Below, piece after piece: positions 6,809 to 60,613 of a stretch of DNA of 64,000 bases. The notes under the pieces are model-generated. The model saw only the letters and a program-made list of their open reading frames with translations, did no database searches and had not been told where the DNA came from. A program made the translations under genes and the position numbers. Each line of letters opens with the position of its first letter. The stretch's first letter is position 1. The stretch is from a virus: IMG/VR virus record IMGVR_UViG_3300047317_001031, positions 64,001 through 128,000 of that record, one strand, 5' to 3'.

Positions 6809-6809
6809 T

Positions 6810-11831: not shown

Positions 11832-13787
11832 TTGAGCGAAGTCGAGTATGCCGAAGAAGAAATTGCCATGCTCCCCATGCAAGAGAAGATGTTCTTCTAT
11901 GATGAAATTTGGGGAGGAATGCGAGGCGGACAAGGTTGCCAACCCGCAGGTTCGTTAGTTCTTCTCGCGAGCGGCAAATGGAAAGACGTTAAATATGTAA
12001 ACCCCGGCGACATGCTCTTGTCTCCGCAACATGACGGATCAATGATCCCGGCAACCGTTGAAGAAGTATATCGTTACGAAAATTCTCCTATTTATGAAGT
12101 AATTACGACGCACAGTGATATAGAAACATACCGTTATATTTGCTCGGGAGATCATATTCTTCCTATAAGGTTACGCCATGAAAAAGGTCTCTGCGAAATA
12201 GGCGTTAAGGCGTATTACGATATGCCTGATGCGAAGAAACCGCTAGGGAAGATATTTGGCATTTCTCATAGAGATAGCAAAAAGATAAAGCATTATAGGT
12301 TTTTGGTTCGTCCCGTTGGGAATTCTACGGTCTACGGATTCACGCTTAACTCTCCGTCAAGTTGGTACGTCACGGACGGGAACCTCATTACGCATAATAG
12401 CGGGAAGTCGCTTGTAAATGCATACTGGCTTTGGCTCCGTCGCATGGAAGAGTATCCGAAGAGCAACTTTGTAGCGGTCGGGGCTACCTATCAGCAGTTG
12501 CGTGAGGGGTTCTTCGCCGGGTTCGTCAACATGCTCGTGAAGCGCGGTCTTGAAGAAGATATCGACTTCATGTATCGGGGAAGCCCGAGGCCATGGATAA
12601 AACTTCTCTACTCCGGTGCAAAGTTACATAGTTGGTCTGCGGATATCGTCTCTCGCGTCCGCGGCACGAGCGTTCAAACTATTATTTTAGAAGAACCTCA
12701 GACATGGGGGAAAAACGCTGAAGCCGCTTGGATTTCCGTTCAGGGTCGGTTACGCCCCAACGAATTAACGAAGCAAATATATCCTGATTTAGTTCCGCAA
12801 GGTAGGTTATCGTTTAACCCTACGGACGTCGGTCCTGGGCATTGGTTATACGATATGCTCGAAAACCGTTGGCCGAAAGAAGGCTGGGTTTGCGAGCGTA
12901 TGAGCACGCGCGACAACACGCTGCTCCTTGACGATGACCCGGATTATATTCGCAAACTCGAAGCCTCCATGTCGCCCGATCGTTGGCCGATTGAAATCGA
13001 CGGCGAGTACGCGACGTTCGGCGGAGAAATATATCGCGGGTTCCGACCTGCTATCCACGGCGTATGGAAAGATGGGCTTCCGCTCATCGCGCTTGATAAA
13101 ACGAAGCCGATCTTGTGGACGTTGGACTTCAACATTGGTTGGATGTCGAGCGTCGTCGCTCAGGCGCACACGCAGACGCAAATCGTGACGGGATACGAGC
13201 CGAGGCTAAACTTGCCTCCGAACCCGATCATCGCGAATTTCATGCCGGATTGGCAGCGGAACATTTTCGTCGTCTTGGACGAATTCTTCTTGCGTAATTC
13301 TACGGTGCGCGATGCGACGAACGCATTCCTCTCCTCTCCATACGGAGAACATGCGAAAGAACTCTCTCGTCAAGGGCACGTCGGCGTACGCCTCTACGGC
13401 GACTCCACGGGCGGCAATCGCAATCAACAGACAGCGCTTTCCAATTGGGAAGTGGTCATGAGCGAATTGCACGATGCCGGCATTCGCATGGACGTCCGTG
13501 TCCCGCATAACCCGAGCGAACTAGATCGCGTCAATGCGATGAACGATCAGTTCCAAACGGGCGAAGGATACGGGTTGCTTGTTGATCTCAACAAATGTGA
13601 GAACCTCATACGAGACTGGCAAGGAGTCAAACGTAAAATCGGAACGAATGAAATAGATAAGAGTGATAAAAGCGAATCCGGGTTACGTTTAACGCATTTG
13701 AGCGATTCCATGGGGTATCTCGTCTATGTTGAAAGACGACTCGCAAAGCGTGAGCCGATCAAATTCCTTGATTTTATAAACAGATAA
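11832..13787 (+). CDS. terL: terminase large subunit precursor interrupted by an intein
   Basis: 651-residue precursor from a TTG start; 497 residues remain after removing the 154-residue intein, a normal TerL length. The split Walker A reads GGMRGGQG before and SGKS after the intein. Walker B-like TIILEEPQTW follows, and the C-terminal nuclease carries WTLDFNIGW and RLYGDSTGGN, consistent with the metal-binding aspartates. The ATPase/nuclease cuts and packages DNA at the portal. No small terminase gene was recognised next to it. Confidence 0.93.
   Translation: MSEVEYAEEEIAMLPMQEKMFFYDEIWGGMRGGQGCQPAGSLVLLASGKWKDVKYVNPGDMLLSPQHDGSMIPATVEEVYRYENSPIYEVITTHSDIETYRYICSGDHILPIRLRHEKGLCEIGVKAYYDMPDAKKPLGKIFGISHRDSKKIKHYRFLVRPVGNSTVYGFTLNSPSSWYVTDGNLITHNSGKSLVNAYWLWLRRMEEYPKSNFVAVGATYQQLREGFFAGFVNMLVKRGLEEDIDFMYRGSPRPWIKLLYSGAKLHSWSADIVSRVRGTSVQTIILEEPQTWGKNAEAAWISVQGRLRPNELTKQIYPDLVPQGRLSFNPTDVGPGHWLYDMLENRWPKEGWVCERMSTRDNTLLLDDDPDYIRKLEASMSPDRWPIEIDGEYATFGGEIYRGFRPAIHGVWKDGLPLIALDKTKPILWTLDFNIGWMSSVVAQAHTQTQIVTGYEPRLNLPPNPIIANFMPDWQRNIFVVLDEFFLRNSTVRDATNAFLSSPYGEHAKELSRQGHVGVRLYGDSTGGNRNQQTALSNWEVVMSELHDAGIRMDVRVPHNPSELDRVNAMNDQFQTGEGYGLLVDLNKCENLIRDWQGVKRKIGTNEIDKSDKSESGLRLTHLSDSMGYLVYVERRLAKREPIKFLDFINR
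11937..12398 (+). other. mini-intein in the TerL P-loop
   Basis: 154 residues beginning with Cys36 of the precursor (CQPAGS) and ending THN before Ser+1 (SGKS). Block-B-like YICSGDHILP and block-F-like VYGFTLNSPSSWYVTDGN are visible. Length and lack of LAGLIDADG or HNH motifs show a mini-intein without a homing endonuclease. The insertion falls exactly inside Walker A, so ATPase activity requires splicing. Confidence 0.92.
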
Positions 13788-13813: not shown

Positions 13814-14302
13814 TTGTTCGAAGAAATACTTAACGCAGAACTTGAGGCGGAAAATATCCTCAACAACATCATGCCGACGATCGAGCAGGGCGTTGAGAAC
13901 CATTTCCGACGCAATGCCCCCTCCTGTTCTCGCATGGAATGGGATCGTCATTCTATGACGGCATATGCAAAAATTCCCGGCAAGGAAGAAGTTCTCGTCT
14001 ATGCGACGAGTTCACATTATCAGTTTAACGAGGATGCTTCTCAAGAACGGATGCAGCTAGAGATTCTTCACCAAACTGCCGAGTATGCCGGAATGCTTTG
14101 CTTAAAGTATCTCGCACAAACGCTAGTGGACGAATCGGAACATCGCGGAGAAATTGACTGCTATTTCGAACGTCTTAGTTTCGGATATCATTTTCTTGGA
14201 GAACGTAGCGTTCCGATTTATGCGTCAATAACGGAGCCTAATGTTTTGAACCAACTTTCATTTCAGAAAAACCAGCATCTCCTAAAACATATCGTTTCCT
14301 AA
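13814..14302 (+). CDS. hypothetical protein
   Basis: 162 residues from a TTG with GGAG seven bases upstream. Helical and acidic N-terminus; sits between terminase and the head genes, so a virion or packaging role is possible. No family recognised. Confidence 0.6.
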   Translation: MFEEILNAELEAENILNNIMPTIEQGVENHFRRNAPSCSRMEWDRHSMTAYAKIPGKEEVLVYATSSHYQFNEDASQERMQLEILHQTAEYAGMLCLKYLAQTLVDESEHRGEIDCYFERLSFGYHFLGERSVPIYASITEPNVLNQLSFQKNQHLLKHIVS

Positions 14303-14355
14303 ACCACTAACTCGTGCGCCGATGAGCGCGCTTTCTTACTCCTGGAGGGAATACC

Positions 14356-15171
14356 GTGTCTCAGTCACCGCTCACCGGCCCATACAACGCGACCGAATAC
14401 CTCGGCACGACGCCTTGGTTCCCGCAGGGAATCGTAACTGATCCCAATACTACTGGAATCAAATATCTCTACGATGCGAGCACGTCGCCGGCCGCCGTAG
14501 GATCATTGCTCGTTCTCGGAAGTGCCGATACGTGGGCACAGAGTTCCGTAACGGGCGCTTCCTATGCTCCCAATACGTTCGGCATCGTGACGGTTGCCGC
14601 AACTGGCGTAGGAGCTCAGGCAACGCTACAAACCGGCGGGATGGTCAATGCGACTTGCACGACCCAATCCGTAGCGCTCGCTGCCGGTTCTCCGCTTATT
14701 TCCGATGGTTCCGGATACCTTACGACCCCATCGCCGAGTATCGCTCCGTCATCCGCGACGGCGACGGCACAAGTAACCGGCTCAAGCACCGTGACGTATC
14801 TCGCGTATGCACGCAATGCTTATACATTAGATTCCGTCGCCTCGTCAGGTATTACGACGACGACCGCTCCTGCGACGATTACTTCAGGTAACCCGATCGC
14901 CGTTGCGGGAACCGTCCCAGCCGGAACGACGAGCGTCATTATCGTCCGATCTGCCGGCGGCGCCTCACAGGGGGTTATCGGACAAGCGAGCGTCGCGCCT
15001 GGGCAAACGAAGTTCAATTTCTTGGATTGGGGACAGGCGGCTGGAGCAGCGACGTATACCCCGAACGCAACGCCGAGTTTCGTGCCGGGACAGCTTCTCG
15101 GGTTCTCGCTTGGAGCACTCGCTGGATCTTCGGCGGCGACAAGCGTTAGCGTCTTGATCGCGGGACGTTAA
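14356..15171 (+). CDS. putative virion surface or decoration protein
   Basis: 271 residues from GTG behind TGGAGGGA. Composition is rich in Ala, Ser, Thr, Val and Gly with few charges, typical of beta-rich capsid decoration or fiber proteins; residues about 155-220 (TSGNPIAVAGTVPAGTTSVIIVRSA) resemble an immunoglobulin-like sandwich. Placed just before the portal. Role is inference. Confidence 0.55.
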   Translation: MSQSPLTGPYNATEYLGTTPWFPQGIVTDPNTTGIKYLYDASTSPAAVGSLLVLGSADTWAQSSVTGASYAPNTFGIVTVAATGVGAQATLQTGGMVNATCTTQSVALAAGSPLISDGSGYLTTPSPSIAPSSATATAQVTGSSTVTYLAYARNAYTLDSVASSGITTTTAPATITSGNPIAVAGTVPAGTTSVIIVRSAGGASQGVIGQASVAPGQTKFNFLDWGQAAGAATYTPNATPSFVPGQLLGFSLGALAGSSAATSVSVLIAGR

Positions 15172-15179
15172 TCTCCCAG

Positions 15180-15572
15180 ATGCTGAAAAACATGCGCGTA
15201 GCGGCGGCTTCGGTCATCGCTACGCTTGTTTTGTCCATGCAGCCGGTAGCGGCTCAATACAATCAGCAAGGAGCCGGAGAACTTCCTGTTACGCTTGGCA
15301 TAAATGTAACGGTCATCGCGGCGGGGACAAATACGTCGTGCAAGGTCGAATACGTCTATCCGAAGACGATTCACAAGATCTTTAGCGCAGCGGTGAGCGA
15401 AACGGCGACGGTCTCGCTTTATAACGATCAGACATGCACTGCGGCTGATCTCATATGGAGCGGCGTTCCGAGTAATACGGTTCCGGTTTGGATCGACGTG
15501 CCGTTTTCAAATGCATGGTCGGTTAAAACAAGCGGAGCAACCGTCAATAATACGATCATAACAACGAATTGA
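15180..15572 (+). CDS. small exported protein in the head operon
   Basis: 130 residues with a clear Sec signal peptide: basic MLKNMRVAA, hydrophobic SVIATLVLSM, cleavage site likely after PVAA (about residue 25). The mature part is a small beta-rich domain with two Cys (about 55 and 86). A signal peptide is unusual for a gene between capsid genes. Function unknown. Confidence 0.65.
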   Translation: MLKNMRVAAASVIATLVLSMQPVAAQYNQQGAGELPVTLGINVTVIAAGTNTSCKVEYVYPKTIHKIFSAAVSETATVSLYNDQTCTAADLIWSGVPSNTVPVWIDVPFSNAWSVKTSGATVNNTIITTN

Positions 15573-15587
15573 TTCATCGAGGCATTT

Positions 15588-17225
15588 GTGGGCTATCGTG
15601 AGATAAAGGGGAAAATCAAGTACCCGAAAGGCACGACGGAACGATACAAGCGCCTTGACGCATATGATCGTCTCCGCGAAGGAACGCTCTACGACCATAT
15701 CCGCACGCCTTTTGATTGCGAAGAAGAGGGCGGACAGTATATCCGCATGCGTGAGCGCCGCCCTTCTATCATATGGCAATGCCCGCGGCTTATCGTTGAT
15801 CAGCTTTCCGGTCTGCTTTGGGGCGACGAGCAGATGCCGATCGTCCGTACGTATTACGGAGAAGAACCGACCGACGAAGACAAGGCAGCAGAAGACGGCA
15901 TTCAGCACCTCGTAGAAATTCTTAATCTTGACGCTGTTATGGACGAGATTACGGAAAAGGCTTCGTCTGGAAGCGCAGCCGTCGTTTTACGCGCAGTTGA
16001 AGGGATCGAGGGAGACGGAAACGATCCGTATATAGAGATCATTCCTGGTAAAGAATGCAAGCCGACATTTGATCCGAAAAATCCGAAGAAACTCGTAAAA
16101 ATAGAACAACTCTATCCGACGACGGGGCAAGCGCTTCGAGATATCGGATACGATAAGGATGTTATCCCGGACGAGGAACTTGATAAGGATTTTTGGTTCC
16201 GGTTGGAGATTGACGATAAAGAAGAAATCCGTTACTTCCCCATGCGTTCCGACCGTTACGAACGTCTTGGACAAATCGAAGGCGGCAAGAAAATAGAATG
16301 GGAAATTGATAAGGAAAATTCCATAGCGCACGAATGGCCCGCGCTTCCCGTTATCTGGGTAAAGGGTCCCAAGGGAAATCGTATCGACGGCGACTGCCTC
16401 TACGGTTCCATCATTGATATCCTAGTTGAAATTGACTACTCGCTCTCGCAGATCGGGCGAGGATACCGCTACACGGCAGATCCGATGCTCGCCTACAAGC
16501 GGGGAGAATTACGTCAAGGCGTTATCCCGGCAGCTTTTGATAATGTTGAGGATCGTACTCAGCGTGACGAAAACGGCCAAGTCATCAAGTCGCCGAACAA
16601 CGTGCTTGATATCGAACCGGGCGGCGATGCGAAGTACCTTGAGATAAGCGGCGACGGCCTTAAATCGTCTGGAGAATTCGTCAAGCTTCTTCGCGAGTGG
16701 GGGCTTGAAATCTGCGGCGGCATGAAGTCCGATGCGGAGACGACGAGCGGCGTCCAAAGCGGACGAGCTCTCGAAATTCTCTACCAAGCGCTGATCCTGG
16801 TCATCAAGCGGTGGCGCGTAGCGGTCGGCAATGGCGCTTTCCTCCCTCTTATCCGCATGTTGCTTACCGGGATGGAAGACGGCGTGATAACCGTCAACGG
16901 CGTTGATTCTCTTGATCCGAAAACGACCATGCGGCTTGTTTGGCCCCAGTGGATGACGCCTAGCGGCTCAGACCTCTTGGCATCGGCTCAAGCTTGGCAG
17001 TCGCTTGCGGGCGGCTCCGCTACGGCTCCCGTTCCGATCTTGCCGCGTATGACCGTGACGAGAATCGCGGGAAGCAACCTCGGCATGCCGGACGTTTCGA
17101 CGCTTATCAAGACGTTGGAAAAACAGAACAACGATGATGACGCAGATCAACTCGAATCCGAGGATCGCGCTCATCAGCGTCAAGTCGAGATTAAAAAAGT
17201 ATCCACAAAACCTAAGATCATATAG
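15588..17225 (+). CDS. portal protein
   Basis: 545 residues from GTG. The gene lies two genes after terminase and before the scaffold-like and capsid genes. Features fit SPP1/A118-type portals: YKRLDAYDRLREGTLYDH, RRPSIIWQCPRLIVDQLSGLLWG, ALEILYQAL, and an acidic C-terminus. The dodecameric portal would form the DNA entry channel and terminase docking site. Confidence 0.8.
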   Translation: MGYREIKGKIKYPKGTTERYKRLDAYDRLREGTLYDHIRTPFDCEEEGGQYIRMRERRPSIIWQCPRLIVDQLSGLLWGDEQMPIVRTYYGEEPTDEDKAAEDGIQHLVEILNLDAVMDEITEKASSGSAAVVLRAVEGIEGDGNDPYIEIIPGKECKPTFDPKNPKKLVKIEQLYPTTGQALRDIGYDKDVIPDEELDKDFWFRLEIDDKEEIRYFPMRSDRYERLGQIEGGKKIEWEIDKENSIAHEWPALPVIWVKGPKGNRIDGDCLYGSIIDILVEIDYSLSQIGRGYRYTADPMLAYKRGELRQGVIPAAFDNVEDRTQRDENGQVIKSPNNVLDIEPGGDAKYLEISGDGLKSSGEFVKLLREWGLEICGGMKSDAETTSGVQSGRALEILYQALILVIKRWRVAVGNGAFLPLIRMLLTGMEDGVITVNGVDSLDPKTTMRLVWPQWMTPSGSDLLASAQAWQSLAGGSATAPVPILPRMTVTRIAGSNLGMPDVSTLIKTLEKQNNDDDADQLESEDRAHQRQVEIKKVSTKPKII

Positions 17226-17242: not shown

Positions 17243-18022
17243 ATGGACCCCGAAAAAACTTCGTCCGAGACGACGGAAACAACGCAAGCTACTGAATCCA
17301 CGAAGGAGACGGGGCAAAAAGGCGCTGAGTCCGTAAAGCATGAGCAAGGGAAGACCGACTCTACCACTCAAGCCGCCACTACGACGAAAAAGACCGAAAC
17401 AGAATCGTCGGTTAGCGAATATGAGAAGCAACTCCGCAAAGAGAACGAAAATGAGCGTAAGAAACGCCAAGACGTAGAACGACGTGCGGATGATGCTGAA
17501 AAAGAACTTAAAGAACTCAAAAAGTACAAAGAAGATCAAGAAAACGCAGAACTCGCTGCGCAGAAGAAGCATGAGGAAATCGCCTCAAAGGAACGCAAAG
17601 CGCGCGAGAAAATCGAAAAAGAACTCGAAGAAGAACGGAAAGTCAACAAGCGAGAGAGACTCCTTGACCGCGCTGAAACGTTCGCCGCGAAACTCGGAAT
17701 CCTTGATGAGTATGTCGAGGATCTACGCGCATCGCTAGAGCGTAAGGCCGACAAGGAAGACATCACATTCGATGCGCTTTCCGAACTTGTCGAGGGATAT
17801 AAACAATCGAAACCCCGTTGGTTCAAAGACGAAGAAGTGAAAAACGAAACCACCAAAACCACGACCGAAACCAAAAGCAAGACCGAAGAAGAGAAAAAGA
17901 AAGCTACCTCTTCAGCAACTCCGTTACGGAAAGACGCCGGCACGGAAGCAAAAGTTGACCATAAGGCATTGGACAAGAATGATTGGACAAAACTTATGGC
18001 TTCCTACGGCGTAAGAGCCTAA
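17243..18022 (+). CDS. scaffolding-like coiled-coil protein
   Basis: 259 residues. Thr/Glu/Lys-rich disordered N-terminus, a long charged coiled coil (about residues 55-145, KELKELKKYKEDQENAELAAQ) and a helical C-terminus (DKNDWTKLMASYGVRA). Position between portal and capsid and this composition match head scaffolding proteins. No protease domain seen. Confidence 0.75.
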   Translation: MDPEKTSSETTETTQATESTKETGQKGAESVKHEQGKTDSTTQAATTTKKTETESSVSEYEKQLRKENENERKKRQDVERRADDAEKELKELKKYKEDQENAELAAQKKHEEIASKERKAREKIEKELEEERKVNKRERLLDRAETFAAKLGILDEYVEDLRASLERKADKEDITFDALSELVEGYKQSKPRWFKDEEVKNETTKTTTETKSKTEEEKKKATSSATPLRKDAGTEAKVDHKALDKNDWTKLMASYGVRA

Positions 18023-18241
18023 AGATAGATAACCCGTTCCTCTCAAAAGAAGAGGAACAGAGTGACGTTACGTTTTCGCCGTCAATGGGCGCAGAGTAAC
18101 GCAAAACCGACCATGCGAGCATAAGGGTGTTCGCATCATGCGTTGTAGCCGTTAGATACGGATTGCTTTCGCATGGAACCGATAAGCGGCTGATCCGATG
18201 AGGCTTTAACCCTGATTGATTTCTTCTCAGGAGTTTTCCTC
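18023..18241 (+). promoter_or_regulatory. structured 5' leader of the capsid gene
   Basis: 219 bases without an ORF. Contains a hairpin GTTCCTCT/AGAGGAAC (18033-18055) and an inverted pair of the genome-wide 8-mer, CCATGCGA at 18111 and TCGCATGG at 18169. The capsid gene has CAGGAG upstream. Could stabilise or boost capsid mRNA, or terminate or process the upstream transcript; no clear promoter. Confidence 0.4.
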
Positions 18242-19645
18242 ATGCCCATTGATAATGTGCCGGCCGTTCAAGACATCATCGAACAGCAGAACCTCTTGGA
18301 GCGGCTCTTCCACGACCCGCTAGAGGCGAATCTTGCCTATTCCAAGTTCGCGGACGATGAGATGTTTCCAAACGGCATCGGTGAAACGCTCACCAAGACA
18401 CGCCCGGCTCTGTTCCCGCTTTCGGCTGCGATGACGCCGATCAACCCGGCAAGCAATACCGGCTTGGATAACGGATTGACGAACAATTACTATGCGTTCG
18501 AGCAATACATCCTCCCGATCAATCTGTATGCATTGACGACCAACGTCAACATCATGCAAGATCGCACGCTCATCCGACGCATCTTCCTCCAGAACTATCA
18601 ACAGCTCGGAGAAAATGCCGGTCGTACGATGGACGGTCTCTGCTCGCAGTTCATCCATACGGCGTATGATTCCGGTAACACCTTCGCTACGCAAACGGTG
18701 AGTAGCGGAACGACGTTGACGGTTGATAACGCAGTCGGTTTCGATACGGCTTTCAATTCCAACGCAGGTCAGTCTCCGGGTTCTCCGACGACGACTTCCT
18801 CAAGCAACCCCGTGACGGTGACGGTCTACAACGGAACGAGCGGAGCGGTAAAGGGGACCTTGACGGTTACCGGCGTTGCGTTTGATTCGGTCAACACCTC
18901 AACGGCGAACGTCGGAACGGGTCCCACGGCTATCGCATACGGCAAATCCGGTACGCTCACGTTCTCGGCGACGATCGGGATCACGATTTCTGCGAACGAT
19001 AACATCGTTGCATCAGACGGATCATTCGTCGAACGCCCGAACGGAAAGCTCACGCGTGCGGCTCTCGTAAGTTCCGATACGCTAAAGCTTATTGACTTCG
19101 GAAACGCTGCGGCGAAGCTCCACTCGCGAAATGTTCCGAAACTCCCTAGCGGAATGTATGGGGCGATCATTGATCCGGCACTATGGCCGCAACTCTTGAG
19201 CGATAACGCGTTCAACTTCGCAACCATGGGCCAAATGGGCGAGGGATACTTCAAGAACGGTATGGTTTCTCGTACCCTCGGTATGGAATTCGTATCATCC
19301 AACATGATCCCGAATTACTCCATCCCGAGTTCCAACCTCCGTGCACGTCACTGCGTCGTCGGCGGAATGGGGATGCTCATCAAGGGGACCTTCCAAGGTT
19401 CGATTGATGCGGCTAGACAGGCGAACACGATGCAGAATGCCGATATACGGCTTATTGAGGACGCAAAGATCGCCCTCATTACCCGCGGACCGATCGACGT
19501 TCTCCAACAGGTCGTGTCGCAAACCTGGGAGTGGGTCGGCGGATTCGTTGTTCCGACAGACTTCACCTCAACGCCCGCGATCATCCCGACAACCGACTAC
19601 GCACGTTACAAGCGCGCCGTGGTCATCGAGGTCGCATCACTCTAA
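18242..19645 (+). CDS. major capsid protein
   Basis: 467 residues behind CAGGAGTTTTCC. Long helical N-terminal region (QNLLERLFHDPLEANLAYSKF), TRPALFPLSAAMTPINPASNTGLDNG, and DRTLIRRIFLQNYQQLGENAGRTMDGL, consistent with an HK97-fold capsid protein. Residues about 150-255 form a Thr/Ser/Val-rich insertion that looks Ig-like. Position after portal and scaffold supports the call. Confidence 0.82.
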   Translation: MPIDNVPAVQDIIEQQNLLERLFHDPLEANLAYSKFADDEMFPNGIGETLTKTRPALFPLSAAMTPINPASNTGLDNGLTNNYYAFEQYILPINLYALTTNVNIMQDRTLIRRIFLQNYQQLGENAGRTMDGLCSQFIHTAYDSGNTFATQTVSSGTTLTVDNAVGFDTAFNSNAGQSPGSPTTTSSSNPVTVTVYNGTSGAVKGTLTVTGVAFDSVNTSTANVGTGPTAIAYGKSGTLTFSATIGITISANDNIVASDGSFVERPNGKLTRAALVSSDTLKLIDFGNAAAKLHSRNVPKLPSGMYGAIIDPALWPQLLSDNAFNFATMGQMGEGYFKNGMVSRTLGMEFVSSNMIPNYSIPSSNLRARHCVVGGMGMLIKGTFQGSIDAARQANTMQNADIRLIEDAKIALITRGPIDVLQQVVSQTWEWVGGFVVPTDFTSTPAIIPTTDYARYKRAVVIEVASL

Positions 19646-19878
19646 TGCCTATCGTAAACCGCGGGGCGCACCAGGTTCAGCCTGAACGCCCCGCTACGGC
19701 GGTTCCAGTTAGGGAGGCGGAGAAAACGATCCCCAAGATCATTCGAATGGACGAGAAGCGTACCGTCGTGCGAGGGAACGGCATGATCGTATTCGAGCAA
19801 AATCAGGTCGTAAGCGATCCGTGGCTTATTTATGCCGCAGTTGATAATAAGGTTGGATTTCAAATCATAGAGGCATAA
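19645..19878 (+). CDS. small head-operon protein
   Basis: 77 residues; ATG overlaps the capsid stop (TAATG). Basic N-terminus and a beta-rich C-terminus. Likely a head accessory or head-tail protein by position only. Confidence 0.55.
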   Translation: MPIVNRGAHQVQPERPATAVPVREAEKTIPKIIRMDEKRTVVRGNGMIVFEQNQVVSDPWLIYAAVDNKVGFQIIEA

Positions 19879-19902
19879 TTACTAATAAGTTTGGAGCGCA
19901 AC

Positions 19903-20706
19903 ATGGTTCTGCCTGAGTACCTTAAGGACAGAGTGCGTATCCACCTTGATGTTCCGGTTATTGGGATTCAAGATTCTGGAAGCATGTTCGGTTACAGATT
20001 CCCAAATGTAATGGGTTTATTGGAAAACCGGATGAACATGCTACAACCCTTTGAATTCGCAACGATAACAGGAACGCCCACCGCATCGTTAAGCCTAATG
20101 CAAAACGGAACAATCCTCGCAGGCGGAACGATAACGATTTCGGTCAATAGCATTCCAGTCATCTACACGATAACGAGTGCGGATGCATCGGCTCCTGATC
20201 CGGTTCTTTCGATCGCGACGAACGCTTCAAATTTGATTTCTGCGACGTTGCCTTCTCTAGTGATCGCGAGTGCGCAGCCGACGATCGTCTTCCCTATCAC
20301 GACGATCGGGAGAAGCCCTTCGCAGTGGCAGGTTACGCTTTCGTCTACGAACGATTCGACGTTCACAGTAGCGATTTCGGGGAGCACGGGCAATCCGTAT
20401 GCCTATGTGAGCCTGCAAGGCATTATGCCGAAGCCGTCATATACATTTGTTGAGGATAGTTATACGGCTACGGGATATCTACCCATACTTGATTACCTGG
20501 AGTCAAAAGTTGCCGGATCAAGCGACTTGATGAAGTTCTCCAAGGCCGACGTGGTTGATTTCCGTCGTGACGAAATGGGCGCTCGTAGCGGGCTATACTG
20601 GTGGTGGAAGAAGCGTCTCTCCACGGTCTTCGGCGTTCCGATTCGTCCGTTGCCTATGGTCGGACGTTTTGGCGGTTCCGGCACGAATCTACGTATGACG
20701 TATTGA
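19903..20706 (+). CDS. putative head-tail or decoration protein
   Basis: 267 residues from the ATG at 19903, preceded by TTTGGAGCGCAA, the same ribosome-site block used in the minus operon. Middle part (residues about 45-165) is Thr/Ser/Ile-rich and Ig-like; the ends are more charged. Position suggests a head completion or decoration protein. Confidence 0.6.
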   Translation: MVLPEYLKDRVRIHLDVPVIGIQDSGSMFGYRFPNVMGLLENRMNMLQPFEFATITGTPTASLSLMQNGTILAGGTITISVNSIPVIYTITSADASAPDPVLSIATNASNLISATLPSLVIASAQPTIVFPITTIGRSPSQWQVTLSSTNDSTFTVAISGSTGNPYAYVSLQGIMPKPSYTFVEDSYTATGYLPILDYLESKVAGSSDLMKFSKADVVDFRRDEMGARSGLYWWWKKRLSTVFGVPIRPLPMVGRFGGSGTNLRMTY

Positions 20707-20716
20707 GGAAACCCTC

Positions 20717-21499
20717 ATGCCGATATTCTTCCCGTCATTCGGTACGATGCCGCTTATTGATTTTGCTATTCAGATCGGGCGTGGAGCGGCTGCGGGCGTT
20801 ATTGGTCAGACGTACGATATTCGCCGCCTAGATGACAATACGAACGGCGCTATTTCAAATAATCCCCCTATTTTTACTGCATACCCTGCGCGTGTACGCC
20901 GTACAACGAGTAAAGCGGCGATCGAGAACATAACATTTGATACCCTTATTTTCCAAGCGACATGCGATAATAGAGTTCTTCGTGACGGGGATTTATTAAC
21001 GCAGACCGGCTATGAGAATGACGGTTCTATCTTCACGATGGCCCAAGCGCGTCCAACGCGTGAGACGCTTTGGGTAAGAACTGAAGCGACGTGTTCCATT
21101 ACGCGTCCTATGCCGACTGCTGGTGCAGCCTCCCAGCAGCCGGCAAACGGAATCGTTGCGACGCAGGGATATAGCGGGTTTGCTAAGTCTACCGAAATAC
21201 CTTTAACGTTGCAGAACGGAATGTACTCATTTTCTTCTGATCCTAATGCGACGCAGGCATCCGTACAAGTCGGAATACAGCCGTTTAACCGCATACGAGA
21301 CGGCAATATAAAGCTCCCCACTGCTCTTTATCGTGAACATTTCATGATTTGGGTTCCGATGCTTCCGGGCGAGATCCTTAATGAATTGGATCGTGTTCGC
21401 TTTCAAAACATGGATGCATACGAGGTCGCTCTTATTTTCTCAACGGATACCGTTGGATTGTCCGGGCATATTTGCATTGTCGAGAGGATCAACGTTTGA
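20717..21499 (+). CDS. putative head closure/neck protein
   Basis: 260 residues. Starts MPIFFPSFGTMPLIDFAIQIGRGAAAGVIGQTYDIRRL, beta-rich body, and a C-terminal PMLPGEILNELDRVRFQNMDAYEVALI. Position before the tail genes fits a connector or closure protein; no firm family. Confidence 0.55.
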   Translation: MPIFFPSFGTMPLIDFAIQIGRGAAAGVIGQTYDIRRLDDNTNGAISNNPPIFTAYPARVRRTTSKAAIENITFDTLIFQATCDNRVLRDGDLLTQTGYENDGSIFTMAQARPTRETLWVRTEATCSITRPMPTAGAASQQPANGIVATQGYSGFAKSTEIPLTLQNGMYSFSSDPNATQASVQVGIQPFNRIRDGNIKLPTALYREHFMIWVPMLPGEILNELDRVRFQNMDAYEVALIFSTDTVGLSGHICIVERINV

Positions 21500-21852
21500 G
21501 AGTTGTTGTCGCAGATGATTCGCATCCGACCCTTTTATTTTTCCGACGTATCCTTATCGAAAATGGTCATGAAGTTGTCGCGATGGCAAATAATGGAAAA
21601 GAGGCATTAGATTTCTGCAAAATCCATAACCCTGATCTTGCATTACTTGATAGAACGATGCCGGGGCTAGGTGGAGAAGCCGTCGCAAAAGAAATTATTG
21701 ATAATAAGTATGCGTCCCATGTGATTATGGTAAGTTTGGATGCTCAACTTTCCGTTTTCAAGCCGCTACTCGAACGTGGTGTTCAAGTCCTCGGGAAACC
21801 TGTTCGGAAAGAGCAGATTCTCGCAGCTATCAATAAACTTCCGCGACAGTAG
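21496..21852 (+). CDS. stand-alone CheY-like response-regulator receiver
   Basis: 118 residues from a TTG in TTGA overlap with the preceding stop. All receiver landmarks are present: acid pair Asp7/Asp8 (VVADDSH), phosphoacceptor Asp52 (LLDRTMPG), Ser80 (MVSLDA) and Lys101-Pro102 (GKPV), with correct spacing. No output domain follows. It sits between neck and tail genes, so it is translated with virion proteins. It may bind or titrate host two-component partners, or have been recruited structurally. Confidence 0.93.
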   Translation: MRVVVADDSHPTLLFFRRILIENGHEVVAMANNGKEALDFCKIHNPDLALLDRTMPGLGGEAVAKEIIDNKYASHVIMVSLDAQLSVFKPLLERGVQVLGKPVRKEQILAAINKLPRQ

Positions 21853-21860
21853 GTTCTTCA

Positions 21861-22136
21861 TTGACAAGCGACGAGTATATTGATCGTGCTCGCGAGATAG
21901 AAGAACATGCGAATAGAAAAGCTGATGCGGCTAGGAAAAGCGTCGTCTGTTGGTTTGGCAGGCATGGGCGTTATACATACCTTGCCGATTGTATTCGTTC
22001 TCTCGCATGTTCTAGCGCGCTTTCAAATATAGAATCTGAAATGAACAAAGAGATGTCTGAATTAGATGCTGAATTTTACGGGATAACCGAAGAGGAGATG
22101 CGCTTAGATGAAGCCTCGCCTCGAAGATGTTCTTGA
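21861..22136 (+). CDS. hypothetical protein
   Basis: 91 residues from TTG. Charged, helical, with one short hydrophobic stretch (YLADCIRSLACSSAL). Follows the receiver gene by eight bases and overlaps the next gene by 29. A partner for the CheY-like protein is conceivable from position only. Confidence 0.5.
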   Translation: MTSDEYIDRAREIEEHANRKADAARKSVVCWFGRHGRYTYLADCIRSLACSSALSNIESEMNKEMSELDAEFYGITEEEMRLDEASPRRCS

Positions 22137-22974
22137 AACCATTCAGATTGCGGTTGCGAACGCGATACAAACGGGGATAAACGCCGGTAGGATCGTTGCG
22201 CCTCCTGCTCAGTGCGTTGTAGGATGGCCGACAACGCCGGAATTGGTTATGATTCTATCTCAAGGCCAATATCAAGTAAATATATTTCCGCTTCCTGACG
22301 GTCGTCAAACGTCGCGGTATACGCCGGTTCCTTTCCCGATAGAGAATCCGAACGTCACGCTTACGGCTACGATATCGGGCGGGACGATAAACTTCGGCGG
22401 ATCGGTTGTAACGGGACTGAATATCCATACGTTCGTTGGGGCGCTACTACGAGATGCCCATTATCAGACGGTTCCTATGGATACGTTGACGACGGTTGCC
22501 GCGGGCGTCAAGAACGCGATAAACGCACTTTCCTTGGCTGGGGTGTCCGCTTCGTCAAGCACGAGCTCCGTTTCCATTACCGGATCTCCGAACGTCATTT
22601 GCAATATCGGATCTTCCGGAACGGTTATGGCGGTTGAGGTTAATCGTGTGCAGCGCGGTATTCAAGTTACCGCATGGTGCCCGGAGCCGTTTTTACGATA
22701 TAGCGTGATTGAGCCGATCGTTGAGAATATCGGGACGACGGATTTTCCATTTTTGAAATTGTCTGACGGAACGCCTCTCCGAATTCAAAATAGCGGTCGT
22801 GATAATTTTAACATGGATCAATCGCAGTCAGCTTATTCATGTTATGAGTACCATTTGAATTTCGAAGTAGAATATGGCCTCATTCGTCTTCTCACCGGCG
22901 CGCAAGTCGAATCGGTTGAGCTAATAACCACCATTAACAATGAACCATCGGTCACTTACTACGCCGGAGGATAG
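22108..22974 (+). CDS. putative tail terminator/neck protein
   Basis: 288 residues. N-terminal helix (LEDVLETIQIAVANAIQTG) followed by APPAQCVVGWPTTPELVMIL and TRYTP-like tail-terminator features, then a beta domain (AWCPEPFLRYSVIEPIVENIG). Position between closure-like and sheath genes supports a tail-completion role. Confidence 0.6.
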   Translation: MKPRLEDVLETIQIAVANAIQTGINAGRIVAPPAQCVVGWPTTPELVMILSQGQYQVNIFPLPDGRQTSRYTPVPFPIENPNVTLTATISGGTINFGGSVVTGLNIHTFVGALLRDAHYQTVPMDTLTTVAAGVKNAINALSLAGVSASSSTSSVSITGSPNVICNIGSSGTVMAVEVNRVQRGIQVTAWCPEPFLRYSVIEPIVENIGTTDFPFLKLSDGTPLRIQNSGRDNFNMDQSQSAYSCYEYHLNFEVEYGLIRLLTGAQVESVELITTINNEPSVTYYAGG

Positions 22975-22978
22975 ACTT

Positions 22979-23185
22979 TTGTTTTCATATGTCGTGAAAA
23001 AGAGCGGCGACTTTCATAAGGACGGCGTTCTCCTTCGGCGCGGCGATGCGCTTACTGGGGAAGATGCACGTTGGTTGGAGTCGCCTGAGAATCATCATCT
23101 TTTGCTTCGTTGCAATCGTGTGCAGGCTCATCGGATAGACGAGTCTTCGCCTTATGTTATTTCAACTTCTAAGGCGGAGGGCTAA
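22979..23185 (+). CDS. small tail-operon protein
   Basis: 68 residues from a TTG at 22979, seven bases after a CGGAGG ribosome site; an upstream in-frame ATG lacks one. Basic, beta/helix mix (VVKKSGDFHKDGVLLRRGDAL). Function unknown. Confidence 0.55.
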   Translation: MFSYVVKKSGDFHKDGVLLRRGDALTGEDARWLESPENHHLLLRCNRVQAHRIDESSPYVISTSKAEG

Positions 23186-23188
23186 TCC

Positions 23189-25114
23189 ATGCCTATCGTA
23201 ACGAACACGCAGCCCGGCAATTTCGTTATTCCGGGGAGCTATATCCAGATCGCTCCAACGCCCCCTCCGGTCGCGCTAGGACCTAATACGTCGCTTATCG
23301 GGCTAAACGGATGTGCGGCTTATGGAGCGGTAAATTCGCCGACATATTTTACGCTTGCTACCGTCTATACGACGTTCGGGCGTAGTACGTCGGTTCCGTA
23401 TTCTATCGCTGATGCGGTGGTAAACGGCATGACGCCGGAATCGAATATATTCCTGGGCAACCGTGTAACGGACGGAACCGATACGGCAGCGAGCGTTCTT
23501 GTCGTTGACGGTTCGGGATTCGCGACGGAGACGATTACGATTTCGGGAGCCGCTGGTACGGGGCAAACGGTTATCGTAACGCTCGTCAACGGAAGCGTCA
23601 CGGTCAATACTCCGCTCTATACGATTCCGAATGGGCAAAGCGCGGCTCTGACGGCAACGGCCCTTTCGAATATCATCAATAACACGGTGGCGGTTCTCGG
23701 ATCAAATTCATTCATTCAAACGACGACCGCCTCAACGAATACGATCCCGATAAACGCCCTTGCATCAGGAACCGGCGGGAATTCGATTACTGCTTCGGTT
23801 GCGATCACGGGAAGCGGAACGAGTGCTACGCCGAATAGCCCGACTGCACTAAGCGGAGGGGCTGTGCCGGGAAGCATCGGAACGCTTACCGATATTCATA
23901 CCGGATCGTACCCGAACGCCTCCACGGCGAACAACATCATTTCGGGATACCGCCTTGATTACACGTCGCCTTCAGGATCGACGTCTCCGGTCGCGCGCCT
24001 TACCCTGTACCACCCCGATTCCGCCGCTCAGGTCTTCAACAATATCATCGCATATGCGACGGTCGGAGGCGGGTATAGCGCGGCTACCTTTAAGACGAAT
24101 CTCGCCGCCGCCATAAATACCGGATCAAGCGCTCAGGCTCCAGCGCAGTTCTGGACATTCACGAGCGGATCTTCAACCGCAGTTCCCCTCGTCGGCGTTT
24201 ATCAGGGTGCCTCGGGCGGTACGGACGGTACGACGAGTATCACGACTCAGGTTCTCCTCGGCCAAGATGCGACTGTTTCTTCGGCACGTACGGGGATCTA
24301 TGCGTTGCGTACGATGCTCGGAGCGGCTCAGGTCATTATTCCACAATTTGCCGACTGTACGGCTGCTCAAGCGCTCGCTTCATTCTGCGTGGAAGAAAAC
24401 TGCATCGGGTTCATTGATCTCGGCGGCATTGGGACATCGACGACGACGGCGGTCACGACGAAGACGAACAATAACGTCAATAGCAGTTCGCTCATCTCGT
24501 CAATGGAGTGGGGTTACTATCTTGATCCGTTCACGGGGGTCGAGAAACTTTGTTCTCCGTCAAACACGATTGCCGGTACGGTAGCGAGCCTCAATCCTTG
24601 GTTCTCGCCGCTTAATAAGCCGACAGGCGGAAAGAGCGGCCTGATCGCGACGGAGTGGAGCACGACCCAGTTTCCCGATTTTACGTCCCTCGAAGTGAAC
24701 AATATTTGCTTCATCGCTCGCGAAAACGGAAACTTCGTCGTATGGAACGATAATTGCTCGGACGGAACCCCGATCGCCGATGCACGTATGCGAAATTACA
24801 TCGCCTACCAAATCCAAGTTATCGGTTTTCCGTTCATCGGCATGTTGCAGTCTACGGCTCCGAACGATCCGACCCGAAACGACTACTTCAACGCGATTAA
24901 GGGATTCTTGTCGCCGATGGCTCCCCCGCCTTTTGGAAGCGCAACGACGCCGCAGATCAACGCCTTTAACGTGGATTCGTCGGGGAATACGCCCACGACG
25001 ATCCAAGGCGGATTCCTCATTGGAAAGACGACTGTCCAGACCCTCCGCGGCATCCGCTATGTCTTGAATATTATCTTGGTAGGGTCGCAAGTCGTCGTGC
25101 AACAGGCCGCATAA
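23189..25114 (+). CDS. contractile tail sheath protein
   Basis: 641 residues. N-terminal FVIPGSYIQIAPTPPPVALGPNTSLIGLNGCA is typical of sheath N-domains (V.vPG.Y....), and the C-terminus (YIAYQIQVIGFPFIGMLQS... GIRYVLNIILVGSQVVVQ) matches sheath C-domains with the terminal strand exchange. An Ala/Thr/Ser-rich insertion fills residues about 100-340. Followed by tube, chaperone and tape measure in canonical order. Drives tail contraction. Confidence 0.88.
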   Translation: MPIVTNTQPGNFVIPGSYIQIAPTPPPVALGPNTSLIGLNGCAAYGAVNSPTYFTLATVYTTFGRSTSVPYSIADAVVNGMTPESNIFLGNRVTDGTDTAASVLVVDGSGFATETITISGAAGTGQTVIVTLVNGSVTVNTPLYTIPNGQSAALTATALSNIINNTVAVLGSNSFIQTTTASTNTIPINALASGTGGNSITASVAITGSGTSATPNSPTALSGGAVPGSIGTLTDIHTGSYPNASTANNIISGYRLDYTSPSGSTSPVARLTLYHPDSAAQVFNNIIAYATVGGGYSAATFKTNLAAAINTGSSAQAPAQFWTFTSGSSTAVPLVGVYQGASGGTDGTTSITTQVLLGQDATVSSARTGIYALRTMLGAAQVIIPQFADCTAAQALASFCVEENCIGFIDLGGIGTSTTTAVTTKTNNNVNSSSLISSMEWGYYLDPFTGVEKLCSPSNTIAGTVASLNPWFSPLNKPTGGKSGLIATEWSTTQFPDFTSLEVNNICFIARENGNFVVWNDNCSDGTPIADARMRNYIAYQIQVIGFPFIGMLQSTAPNDPTRNDYFNAIKGFLSPMAPPPFGSATTPQINAFNVDSSGNTPTTIQGGFLIGKTTVQTLRGIRYVLNIILVGSQVVVQQAA

Positions 25115-25192
25115 GCGGTAGAAACCTCACCCTGATCATTCTCGCATGGCCGCTCACTTTTTGGGCGGCTTTCCCTATTTGAGGAGCCGCAA

Positions 25193-25645
25193 ATGGCGAT
25201 TGTTCCCGGCACATACAACCTTGGGCCGGATAATTCTATTACGATCACGCGTAACGATACGAATTCCGTGGTGACGCTTGACGGCGTTCGAACGAAGTTC
25301 ATGTCTAAGTATGACGATGAAATCGTAAAGGGTTCTCCGATTGACCTTGGCGGAATCGTTATCGCTACGCGCATCCCTGGAGGATTGTCGGGATCTATTG
25401 AGGTTGAACGTGCAACCAACGATTTCGACTTACTTACCCAGTTCCTTGATCAAAACTATTATGCACAAGGTCCGCATCTTCGATTCACGATTACGGAGAC
25501 GGTGCTCCAAGCGGATAGACTCTCTTCAGATTCGGCACAATTCACGCTTGCAGTTTTCCATGGATACAATCGTGGATCATACGAGAGAACCGGAATCGTT
25601 AAAACCACAGTGGAATTTTTCGCTTCAACTCTAGTCGCTGTATAG
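25193..25645 (+). CDS. tail tube protein
   Basis: 150 residues, the usual size for myovirus tubes, directly after the sheath gene. Beta-rich (MAIVPGTYNLGPDNSITITRN, LSGSIEVERATNDFDLLTQFLDQNY). GAGGAG upstream. Forms the inner tube through which DNA passes. Confidence 0.72.
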   Translation: MAIVPGTYNLGPDNSITITRNDTNSVVTLDGVRTKFMSKYDDEIVKGSPIDLGGIVIATRIPGGLSGSIEVERATNDFDLLTQFLDQNYYAQGPHLRFTITETVLQADRLSSDSAQFTLAVFHGYNRGSYERTGIVKTTVEFFASTLVAV

Positions 25646-25667
25646 CGCGTATAAATAGGAGATCCCC

Positions 25668-26063
25668 TTGATTGGAGAGAAACAGACTCTCGTACTTAGC
25701 GACCGCGTAACGGTTGAGGTAGGAGAATTGGACGGATACGAAGAGGACCTCGCCGATTCGCGTCTAGCAGAAGTCGTAAGCATCGGCGGAGATCCGAAGC
25801 GAATGGAAAAACCTGAAGAGCAAAGTTCTCTTATGGCGAAGATGATGCTTTCTACTGCTAAGGTTTTTTCTATTTGTAGTATACGCAAAGTTAATGACAA
25901 TCTGGTATTCCCGCTTAAAAATGCTGGAATGTACGCTAGCACGGCGAAGATGCTAAAAATTTCCGAGAAGAGAACGCTTACTGAATGGGGCGCTCCGATT
26001 TATTCTCCTCCCCAGGAGAAGGTGGGAAACGCGCAGGCCGTCGAGGATTCCGAACATCCGTAA
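25668..26063 (+). CDS. tail assembly chaperone, short (G-like) product
   Basis: 131 residues from TTG behind AGGAGATCCCC. Acidic start (ELDGYEEDLADSRLAEV) and helical middle. The position between tube and tape measure matches gpG-like chaperones. Its 3' part overlaps a second frame and carries the slippery site described separately. Confidence 0.72.
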   Translation: MIGEKQTLVLSDRVTVEVGELDGYEEDLADSRLAEVVSIGGDPKRMEKPEEQSSLMAKMMLSTAKVFSICSIRKVNDNLVFPLKNAGMYASTAKMLKISEKRTLTEWGAPIYSPPQEKVGNAQAVEDSEHP

Positions 26064-26743: not shown

Positions 26744-29047
26744 ATTCTCGGAAGCTGGACCGTCGCAAGCATTATTCGTTTTTCTTCGAATGCGGATGTT
26801 GTTATGTCCCGCATAGCCTCGTCGACTGCGATGGCATCGGGAGCACTTGATCGTCAAAAGAAGCAATTAGATGCTAATCAATTAGCCACGCTCCGTTATC
26901 AGCAACGAATAGCTGCTCTTCGCGCAGAACAGATGCGTTTCGTACAGATGGGAGCAGGGTTTGCCGCAGTTGGAGGATTCCTTGCTATAGGAACTGCTGT
27001 GGCTGATGCATCTAAGTTCCAGCTAGTGATGACCAGTATCCAGAACGTCACCGAAGCATCGGCATCACAGATGGAGCGTCTCTACAACGCAACGTTCAAC
27101 GTCGGGAATAAAACGGCGATGAACGCAACCGAGGTTGCAGAAATGTTCCGGGAAATCGCGCGTAGCGCACAAGGCTCTACGTTGGGATTTCAGGGGATGT
27201 TAAACATTCTTCCCTATGCAGCGAAAATGCAGACGGTTCTAGGGCCTACTCGTGGAATGTCACCTGAACAAACGGTTGATACCACAATGGCGCTTGTCCA
27301 TCTCTTCCGCCAATATTACGAAGCCGGAACTCCAAAGATGATGGATACCGTTCTTCGCATGTTTGAACTGTCCCCAATTTCGCCCGCCCAAATGTTACGG
27401 CAAATGACGTATTTCGTGCCGATGCTCAAGGCGCTCAATACGCCTAATGAGCAAGCAGCAACGATGATGACGTTCCTTGCACGCGCTGGGTTCGGAAGCG
27501 GAAAAGGCGGCACGGGCGTTGCCATGCAAACATTACAATCATTAGGGCCTCTACAAATAACATCTTTCGCTCAAGCACATAAACACGAAATGTTAGTCAA
27601 GCTCGGATTGCTTAATAAAGATGGAACAAGTCCGTTCGTACATCCTGGAGGACCTGGCGGAAAACCGTATTACGATCTCTTCCAAGAACTGGCGCAGGTT
27701 TCCAAGGCTTCGCAACTCGTAGGCGGCGGAGCGAATGCGGTAAAGACTCTTACGAGCATCTTTGGGACAACCGGCGGCAGAGTCGCTATGCTTATGGCAG
27801 ATCCTGATCTTGTCAAGCAATTACAGTCCCTCGAAAAGATCATGACGACCCAAGCCTCGCTCGGGCTTAAACCACAGTCCGAGAAGATCATGGATACTGT
27901 ATCATCTCAGTGGAAACGTATGATCGCGAACTTCAATTCGCTAATGATTGAAATGGGCGTTCCGTGGTTGCGTGCGTTAACAGATTTATTCCGATCAATC
28001 GGTGATGCCTTACATAATGCACAGGCATGGATGCACCAACATCCGCGTGCGGAAAAGGCTATTGGTGCAGGTGCCGCAGTTGGATCAACGGTTCTTGCGG
28101 GTGTCGCTCTTTCAGGAATTATCGGTGCTGCCGGAAAGATACTCGGTTTTGGGGGCGGGATAGGCATTTTAGGAGGCGGTGCCGGGGGGCTATTCGGTGG
28201 GGTTCTCGGATCATTACGTAGAGCGGGAACAGATATTGCGAAAATTTTCACATTCTCTCCAGGAGGGAAAGGGATTATCGGTCAGGGTGTTTCCGGGATG
28301 ATGAAGCCTGATTTTCTCCGTGATCTAGGTATGGGATTACGAAACATACCAGGAATACGGCAACTCCTTACGGCTCTTGATCATCTTGGAGGAGTCGGAA
28401 AACTCATCGCCGGCATAATGAATATTCTCGTTCATAGTTCCGGGCTTCTTATCAGGACTCTTTTCGCGTTTGGATTGCGCTTGCTCAACGTCGTTGGATG
28501 GGCATTGCTTGTTAAGGATGCCTTACAATTCTTTCTTGACCATCCGAAAGAAATCGGGGCTTGGGTTGCGAAAATCATATGGTTTTTCCGTGCAACGCTA
28601 ATACCGCAGACGATCAAGGCCATGCAGACATTCGTTCCGCTTATACTCGGGGCATTTTGGAATATGCTCAAAGGGATGTTGGATATGATCTTGCATCCCG
28701 GTCGTTTTGTCGCAGCAGCAAAGGACATGATGAAGGCCATAAACGATTACAATTGGCAGCAACAGCATATAAACGATATAGCCGCTGCACGGGCATCGGC
28801 ACAACATGCGAAAGAAAATGAACAGCGTTACGCAGATGAACAGCGTAAGCGAGCATTTGCAAATGACCGCGTAAGACGTCAAGAAGGAACTAATATAACC
28901 ATACAGAGCCTCGTTCTCCCTGGCGTGAAAACAGCGAAAGACATACATCCAGCACTTATGAATGTTGATAAGCTAACGCAGGGAAGCCCCCGCATTCCAA
29001 CTGATCCTCGCATTGCATTCCCGCTGAATTCTTCATTCGCTATCTAA
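26744..29047 (+). CDS. tail tape measure protein
   Basis: About 767 residues if initiated at the ATT at 26744; the first standard start is ATG 26804 (747 residues). The upstream 20 codons read GSWTVASIIRFSSNADVVM, a plausible tape-measure N-terminus, with AGAGGGA eight bases before ATT and a stop only at 26714. The protein has an N-terminal helical region, Gly/Ala-rich hydrophobic stretches (about 400-460 and 530-580) and a long helical C-terminus. It sets tail length. Confidence 0.85.
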   Translation: MLGSWTVASIIRFSSNADVVMSRIASSTAMASGALDRQKKQLDANQLATLRYQQRIAALRAEQMRFVQMGAGFAAVGGFLAIGTAVADASKFQLVMTSIQNVTEASASQMERLYNATFNVGNKTAMNATEVAEMFREIARSAQGSTLGFQGMLNILPYAAKMQTVLGPTRGMSPEQTVDTTMALVHLFRQYYEAGTPKMMDTVLRMFELSPISPAQMLRQMTYFVPMLKALNTPNEQAATMMTFLARAGFGSGKGGTGVAMQTLQSLGPLQITSFAQAHKHEMLVKLGLLNKDGTSPFVHPGGPGGKPYYDLFQELAQVSKASQLVGGGANAVKTLTSIFGTTGGRVAMLMADPDLVKQLQSLEKIMTTQASLGLKPQSEKIMDTVSSQWKRMIANFNSLMIEMGVPWLRALTDLFRSIGDALHNAQAWMHQHPRAEKAIGAGAAVGSTVLAGVALSGIIGAAGKILGFGGGIGILGGGAGGLFGGVLGSLRRAGTDIAKIFTFSPGGKGIIGQGVSGMMKPDFLRDLGMGLRNIPGIRQLLTALDHLGGVGKLIAGIMNILVHSSGLLIRTLFAFGLRLLNVVGWALLVKDALQFFLDHPKEIGAWVAKIIWFFRATLIPQTIKAMQTFVPLILGAFWNMLKGMLDMILHPGRFVAAAKDMMKAINDYNWQQQHINDIAAARASAQHAKENEQRYADEQRKRAFANDRVRRQEGTNITIQSLVLPGVKTAKDIHPALMNVDKLTQGSPRIPTDPRIAFPLNSSFAI

Positions 29048-30007: not shown

Positions 30008-31468
30008 ATGGCCGCATTCCCAACCCCAATGTCAACGGCTTTGCAGCCCGTCGTTTATACACCAACATTCGAGACCAATCAGGTTGCGTGCGTCGTAGTT
30101 ATTGAAGGCGTTCCATATCTTCCGGTTCATGCAACGATTGAGCATAATGCACATGGGGCTACGGACTCTGCTGAATGTACGCTCCCCGTAAGTAGTAATC
30201 CTGATTTCTCGGTAATGTTTGCCCGAAGTGATGGGACTGGAGGAACGCCTAACAATGCCCTCGTCCCTGTCTATGTAAGCATTTATGCTGGATTCCCGGC
30301 GAACCGTGTTCCTGAATCTCTTGATTTCTCTCAATTGTCGCAGCGATTCTTCGGTATCGTTGATTTGTACTCGGCGCAAATCGGAGCGAATGAAGTAACT
30401 TTTAAGTGCCGTAGTATGGCGGCTCCTCTTGTTGATTTCCCAGTAACATCGCTCGCGATGAACGTAACGACGACGCAACTCGTTACAGCACTCGCTCAGA
30501 GCGTAGGGCTTACGCCGAATATCCTCCTCAATCCGAATAATCCGCCACTATACGTGCAGGAAGTATTCGCGAATGAATTTGTCGGAGGTCAGAACTTCGC
30601 CTCAACCGTAGTGAATGAACGTGCATGGGATTTGCTTTTGAAGTGTGCTCTCTTTGACGATGTGGATGTTTGGGTAAGCCAGATCGGCGGAATTTCTTTC
30701 CTTAATTATTGTGCGCCTGGTCTTATCCCTAGGACGACGGTCGGGCTTACATATGGAACGGATATAGAAGAAATAACCGTTGAGCACTCAATCCAATATG
30801 CGAAAAATATACACGTTGAAGTACATAGTTATAATAAACGAATAAAGCAATCGACGTCATTTTCTGTTGATAGTAATGATCCAGGAGGCATAACGAGTAC
30901 GCCTACAACGAAAACCGTGACTTCATCTCCTATATTCGGGACTTCCGGCCAAGTATCAACGAGCGTATCTCCTACTGGAGTTTCAACAACGACGCAGACT
31001 TCTTTTAGTGGCGGATCTACAACGGCGAGCACTTCTCCAGGAAGAGAATCGGCTAAAGAACGATATGTTGTATATCCTAGAAATCTATCTCCCATAGCTT
31101 GCCAACAATTAGCGCAATCCATGTGGAGGCAGATTTCCATGCAAGAATATCGCATGACGCTAACGATCCCCATGACGACACTATTTCTTTTCGCTTTTGA
31201 CACTAGCGGCATAAGTATTCTCCTGAACGTAATGGGTCTTCCCTATCGTAATGCCAATAGCGTTTTTAGCGGAACGGCTCCGATAACGAATACGGCCACT
31301 CTCTCATACGCAGGTTCTCCTGTTGTGACCTCAAATACGGTAACAACAACGAGAACGGATACACGCTATTGGCCTCGTCGGATTACTGAGACGATTGATC
31401 CTAGCGGTGCCGGGTGGAAGCTAGTAGTGGAAAGTGTGAATCACTCGTTGCCGCAGGGTCAAATTTGA
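30008..31468 (+). CDS. baseplate hub protein (gpD/gp27-like)
   Basis: 486 residues. Position after tape measure and LysM-like protein, and mixed beta domains (FFGIVDLYSAQIGANEVTFKCRS, YVVYPRNLSPIACQQLAQSMWRQISMQEYRMTLTIP) fit phage late-control/hub proteins. A Ser/Thr-rich linker occupies about 285-340. Forms the trimeric hub holding the spike. Confidence 0.68.
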   Translation: MAAFPTPMSTALQPVVYTPTFETNQVACVVVIEGVPYLPVHATIEHNAHGATDSAECTLPVSSNPDFSVMFARSDGTGGTPNNALVPVYVSIYAGFPANRVPESLDFSQLSQRFFGIVDLYSAQIGANEVTFKCRSMAAPLVDFPVTSLAMNVTTTQLVTALAQSVGLTPNILLNPNNPPLYVQEVFANEFVGGQNFASTVVNERAWDLLLKCALFDDVDVWVSQIGGISFLNYCAPGLIPRTTVGLTYGTDIEEITVEHSIQYAKNIHVEVHSYNKRIKQSTSFSVDSNDPGGITSTPTTKTVTSSPIFGTSGQVSTSVSPTGVSTTTQTSFSGGSTTASTSPGRESAKERYVVYPRNLSPIACQQLAQSMWRQISMQEYRMTLTIPMTTLFLFAFDTSGISILLNVMGLPYRNANSVFSGTAPITNTATLSYAGSPVVTSNTVTTTRTDTRYWPRRITETIDPSGAGWKLVVESVNHSLPQGQI

Positions 31469-38580: not shown

Positions 38581-38711
38581 GTTCTTCCTACCTTTCAGGG
38601 ATAGCCTGCCATGCTTATTGCATCCAGGCAAGTGATTCCTGGGTAGGCAAGAGTCAAATGGGGAGGAGGTAGTCCCCGGAAGTCCTTAAAGACCCGGAGG
38701 CTTCCTTGCGG

Positions 38712-38717: not shown

Positions 38718-38723
38718 CCGAGC

Positions 38724-60314: not shown

Positions 60315-60350
60315 AGTTTGAACCTTGAAAATTGAATACGAAACAAAATC

Positions 60351-60612: not shown

Positions 60613-60613
60613 T

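Follow-up and report, generated by a model that had tools for sequence, protein, structure and literature searches.

A single-domain CheY-like receiver conserved in the virion operon of uncultured contractile-tailed phages

A 64,000-nucleotide stretch of viral DNA (hereafter the window; bases 64001-128000 of the 128,918-bp record IMGVR_UViG_3300047317_001031) encodes, among its virion genes, a single-domain response regulator of the CheY/Spo0F type that consists of a receiver alone. Judged from comparative sequence analysis, this receiver appears to be an old, functional, near-core gene of a clade of uncultured contractile-tailed phages, because it occupies the same operon slot across lineages, keeps its active site, forms one clade, has diverged at the pace of the adjacent gene neck1 and bears the mark of purifying selection. 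The explanation that we favor, at roughly even odds when taken as a whole, is that of a receiver acquired once, phosphorylated by the host and acting on a host partner.

Results

The receiver gene lies in a myophage structural operon that includes genes for the terminase large subunit (TerL; 11832-13787, phrog_2), the portal protein (15588-17225, phrog_64), the major capsid protein (18242-19645, phrog_1357), the tail sheath (23189-25114) and the tape measure protein (26804-29047, phrog_28), all on the + strand, together with a baseplate wedge gene (phrog_6) and a 150-aa phrog_12993 gene in the usual place of the tail tube gene. The sheath was called from its 33% identity to the product of positions 14053-15624 of a related contig, L012, which itself matches the phrog_23 tail sheath. 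Two more + strand genes, neck1 (20717-21499, 260 aa) and neck2 (22108-22974, 288 aa), occupy the head-tail-joining region. The neck1 protein has no annotated function and matches weakly phrog_14605, itself without assigned function; we use the label because the gene sits between the major capsid and sheath genes. The neck2 protein belongs to phrog_13532, also a PHROG without assigned function. Profile searches of the PDB with the neck1 and neck2 alignments returned nothing reliable, so the exact structural roles of both proteins are read from gene order, and an AlphaFold2 model of neck1 (four sequences) was discarded at a pLDDT of 37.6. Promoter and terminator signals in 18000-26000 did not exceed chance, and the operon structure is therefore deduced from gene overlap only.

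Elsewhere in the window, TerL contains an intein-like N-terminal insert (approximately residues 36-190) ending in ...GNLITHN-SGKS ahead of the Walker A region, and a C5 cytosine DNA methyltransferase (55804-58263) is split by an intein in which Hint and LAGLIDADG domains are found. The terminase gene is closely preceded by a nucleotide-sugar cassette (5478-10657) that encodes an RmlC-like epimerase, an NAD-dependent epimerase, an RmlD-like reductase, a glycosyltransferase and a methyltransferase. A GIY-YIG/NUMOD3 homing endonuclease gene (31414-32232) is inserted in the tail gene region, a pair of small genes that includes one for a ParE-like toxin (38706-39211) may be a type II toxin-antitoxin module, and 24 tRNA genes, one of them with an odd two-base anticodon call, are clustered at 60350-63965.

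The receiver itself (21496-21852, + strand, 118 aa) matches Pfam PF00072 (Response_reg) over residues 3-113 with 63.4 bits (E 2.6e-17; cut-off 30.2 bits), covering profile positions 1-111 of 111. The domain thus fills the protein, leaving no output domain; a C-terminal ANTAR domain is likewise absent. The translation contains the active-site residues D7, D8, D52, S80, K101 and P102, while the aromatic switch position, three residues before the Lys, is occupied by V. The AlphaFold2 model shows a complete (beta-alpha)5 fold with a mean pLDDT of 93.5, for which Foldseek found the EutV receiver and Thermotoga maritima CheY as the best solved structures (TM 0.88-0.90) and also matched the receivers of Spo0A and PhoP. 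The TTG start at 21496 is preceded closely by GAGAGG and overlaps the TGA of neck1 (21497-21499) by 4 nt. These results bear out the first-pass annotation, which had described an intact, stand-alone receiver with no output domain in the virion operon. It had also described translation as coupled to the stop of a neck gene; the overlap is confirmed, and the identity of the upstream gene as a neck gene, which has no annotated function, is assigned from position. This is the sole receiver in the whole 128.9-kb record, in which no HATPase_c or Hpt domain of a histidine kinase or phosphotransfer protein was recognized.

IMG/VR viral contigs were searched with neck1 or the receiver, yielding the lineages L004/L005, L008, L011, L012, L013, L102, L103 and L104, all metagenomic fragments. 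The last three (IMGVR 3300050821_002018, 3300010396_000048 and 3300010371_000069, respectively; 25-68 kb) are further members of the uncultured myophage clade. Each fetched contig except L013 has one receiver, and with the window this makes eight lineages in which the receiver occupies one and the same slot, flanked by neck1 and neck2. The receivers of all seven relatives exceed the PF00072 cut-off. When only the lineages fetched by neck1 alone are considered (L004/L005, L011, L012, L013, L102, L103 and L104), six of the seven have the receiver, a count that is unbiased by searching for receivers. L013 has none anywhere in its 35.9 kb, and there neck1 and neck2 overlap directly. Nor is there a receiver in the 53 kb of Komagataeibacter phage phiKX1, whose coat protein is 34% identical to the major capsid protein of the window and whose neck2 protein falls in the same PHROG. 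No prophage turned up when bacterial genomes were searched with the neck1 alignment.

Pairwise identities among the eight lineages are 27-65% for the receivers and 38-64% for the neck1 proteins. About nine tenths of the receiver alignment columns vary, and the phospho-acceptor site belongs to the small invariant remainder: D7, D8, D52, K101 and P102 are the same in all eight lineages, and position 80 is Ser in five and Thr in three. The inactivated receivers that the first-pass annotation had named as a possible sign against its reading were thus not found. The residue at the switch position is aromatic in two of the eight lineages and non-aromatic in the other six.

In seven of the eight lineages the receiver is directly followed by neck2, its stop falling anywhere from 17 nt within neck2 to 1 nt ahead of the start of that gene. 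The exception is the window, where a 91-aa ORF without a family match (21861-22136, + strand), not seen among the other lineages, intervenes. In L012 it is neck1 that is set apart from the receiver, by a block of 3.9 kb (L012 8754-12643) that includes a gene for a pectate-lyase-like spike, and the receiver still overlaps neck2. In L011 and L103, extra genes of other kinds lie between neck2 and the sheath gene; taken with the L012 block, they make this spot look like an insertion hot spot.

For the history of the gene we used a tree of 54 receivers, among them the best-scoring bacterial and archaeal hits in 84,980 genomes. The eight phage receivers form one clade (support 98/92) next to a group that contains T. 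maritima CheY, the branch joining the two being supported at 87/86. Distances between the receivers follow those between the neck1 proteins (Mantel r 0.84, p 0.0004) and those between the neck2 proteins (r 0.73, p 0.003); single-gene trees of the receivers lack the strength to tell travel with neck1 from travel with neck2. The GC content of each receiver tracks that of its phage over the range 0.44-0.68. For L011 versus L103, dN/dS is about 0.24/1.48 = 0.16, with dS near saturation, a value that points to purifying selection on the gene. The simplest history would be that the ancestor of the clade captured a CheY-like gene once and passed it on vertically, with a possible loss in L013, which may be either an outgroup or a member of the clade.

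A recent random insertion from a host, the other outcome against which the first-pass annotation had weighed its reading, is ruled out by the shared slot across deeply diverged lineages, the single clade, the divergence in step with neck1 and the GC match. Two sets of candidates were rejected as relatives. The receiver matches in INPHARED were mostly unannotated contigs labelled as Listeria, Staphylococcus or faecal phage, together with full response regulators (phoB, uvrY, ypdB), and are probably bacterial sequence. A receiver on another viral contig, L015, is NarL-like and belongs to a different phage type.

Discussion

The near-core status of the gene and the retention of its phospho-acceptor site suggest that these phages need it for some phosphate-dependent task. 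In our preferred reading, Asp52 would be phosphorylated by host histidine kinases or by acetyl phosphate, sources to which we are led because the record encodes no kinase of its own, although the IMG/VR records are fragmentary and a kinase could lie elsewhere in the genome. The phosphorylated receiver would then dock on a partner protein, as CheY, Spo0F or EpsW do, the likeliest partner being a host signaling or cell-surface/motility protein, and the phage may in this way divert or mimic a host two-component pathway late in infection. The position of the gene beside neck2 would mainly set the timing and dose of the product. The targets of stand-alone receivers in bacteria are motors, phosphorelays or enzymes. 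The lack of the switch aromatic from six of the eight lineages, and an alpha4-beta5 loop one residue shorter than that of T. maritima CheY, argue against a plain copy of CheY and suggest that signal output may differ from that of CheY.

The partner is more likely a host target than a part of the virion. We give a host partner a probability of about 50% and a neck2 assembly partner one well below that, most of the remainder being shared between a virion component and an adaptor. Counting against the host partner is the link to neck2, which holds even where 3.9 kb separate the receiver from neck1; so tight a link could equally mean a partner in virion assembly. The receiver might, more tentatively, pair with neck2 or another joint protein, aspartyl phosphorylation gating head-tail joining or sheath docking. 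In all lineages but the window the receiver abuts or overlaps the start of neck2 (-17 to +1 nt), L012 with its spike/fibre block included, which fits such a switch, as does the fact that both phage families with receivers, this clade and the Alteromonas phages described below, place them in structural modules. On the other hand, homologous neck1-neck2 pairs do without a receiver in L013 and, more remotely, in phiKX1; the 91-aa ORF separates receiver and neck2 in the window; and gene overlap, common in phage operons, needs no physical contact. Somewhat more doubtful is the narrower proposal that phosphorylation-dependent binding of the receiver to neck2 lets the host kinase or acetyl-phosphate state gate head-tail joining or sheath assembly. 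If such gating were true, it would link virion assembly to host physiology.

It is rather unlikely that the receiver serves as an adaptor to direct a protease or a polysaccharide enzyme of the host. Stand-alone receivers do play such roles in bacteria, EpsW being one that activates the phosphoglycosyl transferase EpsZ through direct contact (PMC12802240). The cassette of dTDP-sugar and glycosyltransferase genes that precedes the terminase would make surface polysaccharide already a target of the phage, but no direct link connects the receiver to that cassette. CpdR is a stand-alone receiver that steers a protease, and the phage protein could resemble it or EpsW. Just as unlikely, or slightly more so, is a receiver fold that forms part of the neck, or that travels in the particle and is injected. 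The gene is encoded between virion genes and its order matches in all lineages; however, a purely structural use leaves the invariant catalytic residues unexplained in a protein that otherwise varies so widely, and relatives dispense with the gene. That the receiver is a passenger, caught by chance from a host and without phage function, is highly improbable: bacteria are rich in receivers, and neither L013 nor phiKX1 has one, but eight lineages at 27-65% identity share its slot and intact active site, its divergence keeps pace with that of neck1, and dN/dS is about 0.16 for L011 versus L103.

Two-component receivers of phages have mostly been noted singly and filed as auxiliary metabolic genes. 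Here, instead, the receiver is near-core in a clade of diverse phages, and its place in the virion operon is fixed. The open-access papers searched describe no receiver gene within the neck operon of a phage, an absence that is weak evidence. The kind of protein is known; the phage-specific family and its conserved setting are new. The conservation of these proteins suggests that these phages tap host phosphate signals during assembly, and raises the question of whether, late in infection, phages sense or redirect the phosphorelay signals of the host and have virion assembly wired to them.

Among cellular receivers, the CheY proteins of T. maritima and Pyrococcus are among the best PDB profile matches (85-89 bits) and fall in the nearest group of the tree. 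They too are single-domain receivers with all catalytic residues, T. maritima CheY being about 29% identical to the window receiver over the structure alignment. Unlike them, the phage receivers are phage-borne, mostly lack the CheY switch aromatic and are shortened by the one residue in the alpha4-beta5 loop, which is the output face of CheY. The top Foldseek match is the receiver part of EutV (6wsh; TM 0.90, 34% identity); response regulators of the EutV/PdtaR type carry an ANTAR RNA-binding domain, which the window protein does not. Spo0F and EpsW share with it the lack of an output domain and act by phosphotransfer or protein-protein contact (EpsW: PMC12802240), whereas the window receiver is encoded in a phage virion operon with no kinase in the record.

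The closest precedent is found in the Alteromonas phages V22 (gp30) and A5 (gp11), which encode CheY-like proteins (IPR001789) of 147-149 aa inside the tail-fibre module, following tail fibre and chaperone genes, and termed class II auxiliary metabolic genes (PMC7289586, PMC10579305). They too are stand-alone receivers in a virion structural module of a tailed phage, which tempers the suggestion of the first-pass annotation that such receivers are unusual in phage structural operons. They also keep the D-D, D, S and K residues, but their genes lie in the tail-fibre module rather than at the head-tail joint between neck genes; L012 alone of the neck-receiver lineages has a spike gene directly upstream of its receiver. 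The NarL-like receiver of L015 (7980-8366) directly follows a 1331-aa pectate-lyase-like spike gene, so that L015, L012 and the Alteromonas phages present a recurring spike/fibre-receiver neighborhood. V22 gp30 is about 22% identical to the window receiver (Foldseek), and the V22 and A5 proteins fall outside the neck-receiver clade in the best tree, although the AU test does not reject a joint clade (p 0.16). The Alteromonas phages are a second, probably independent case, which suggests that tailed phages have recruited receivers recurrently.
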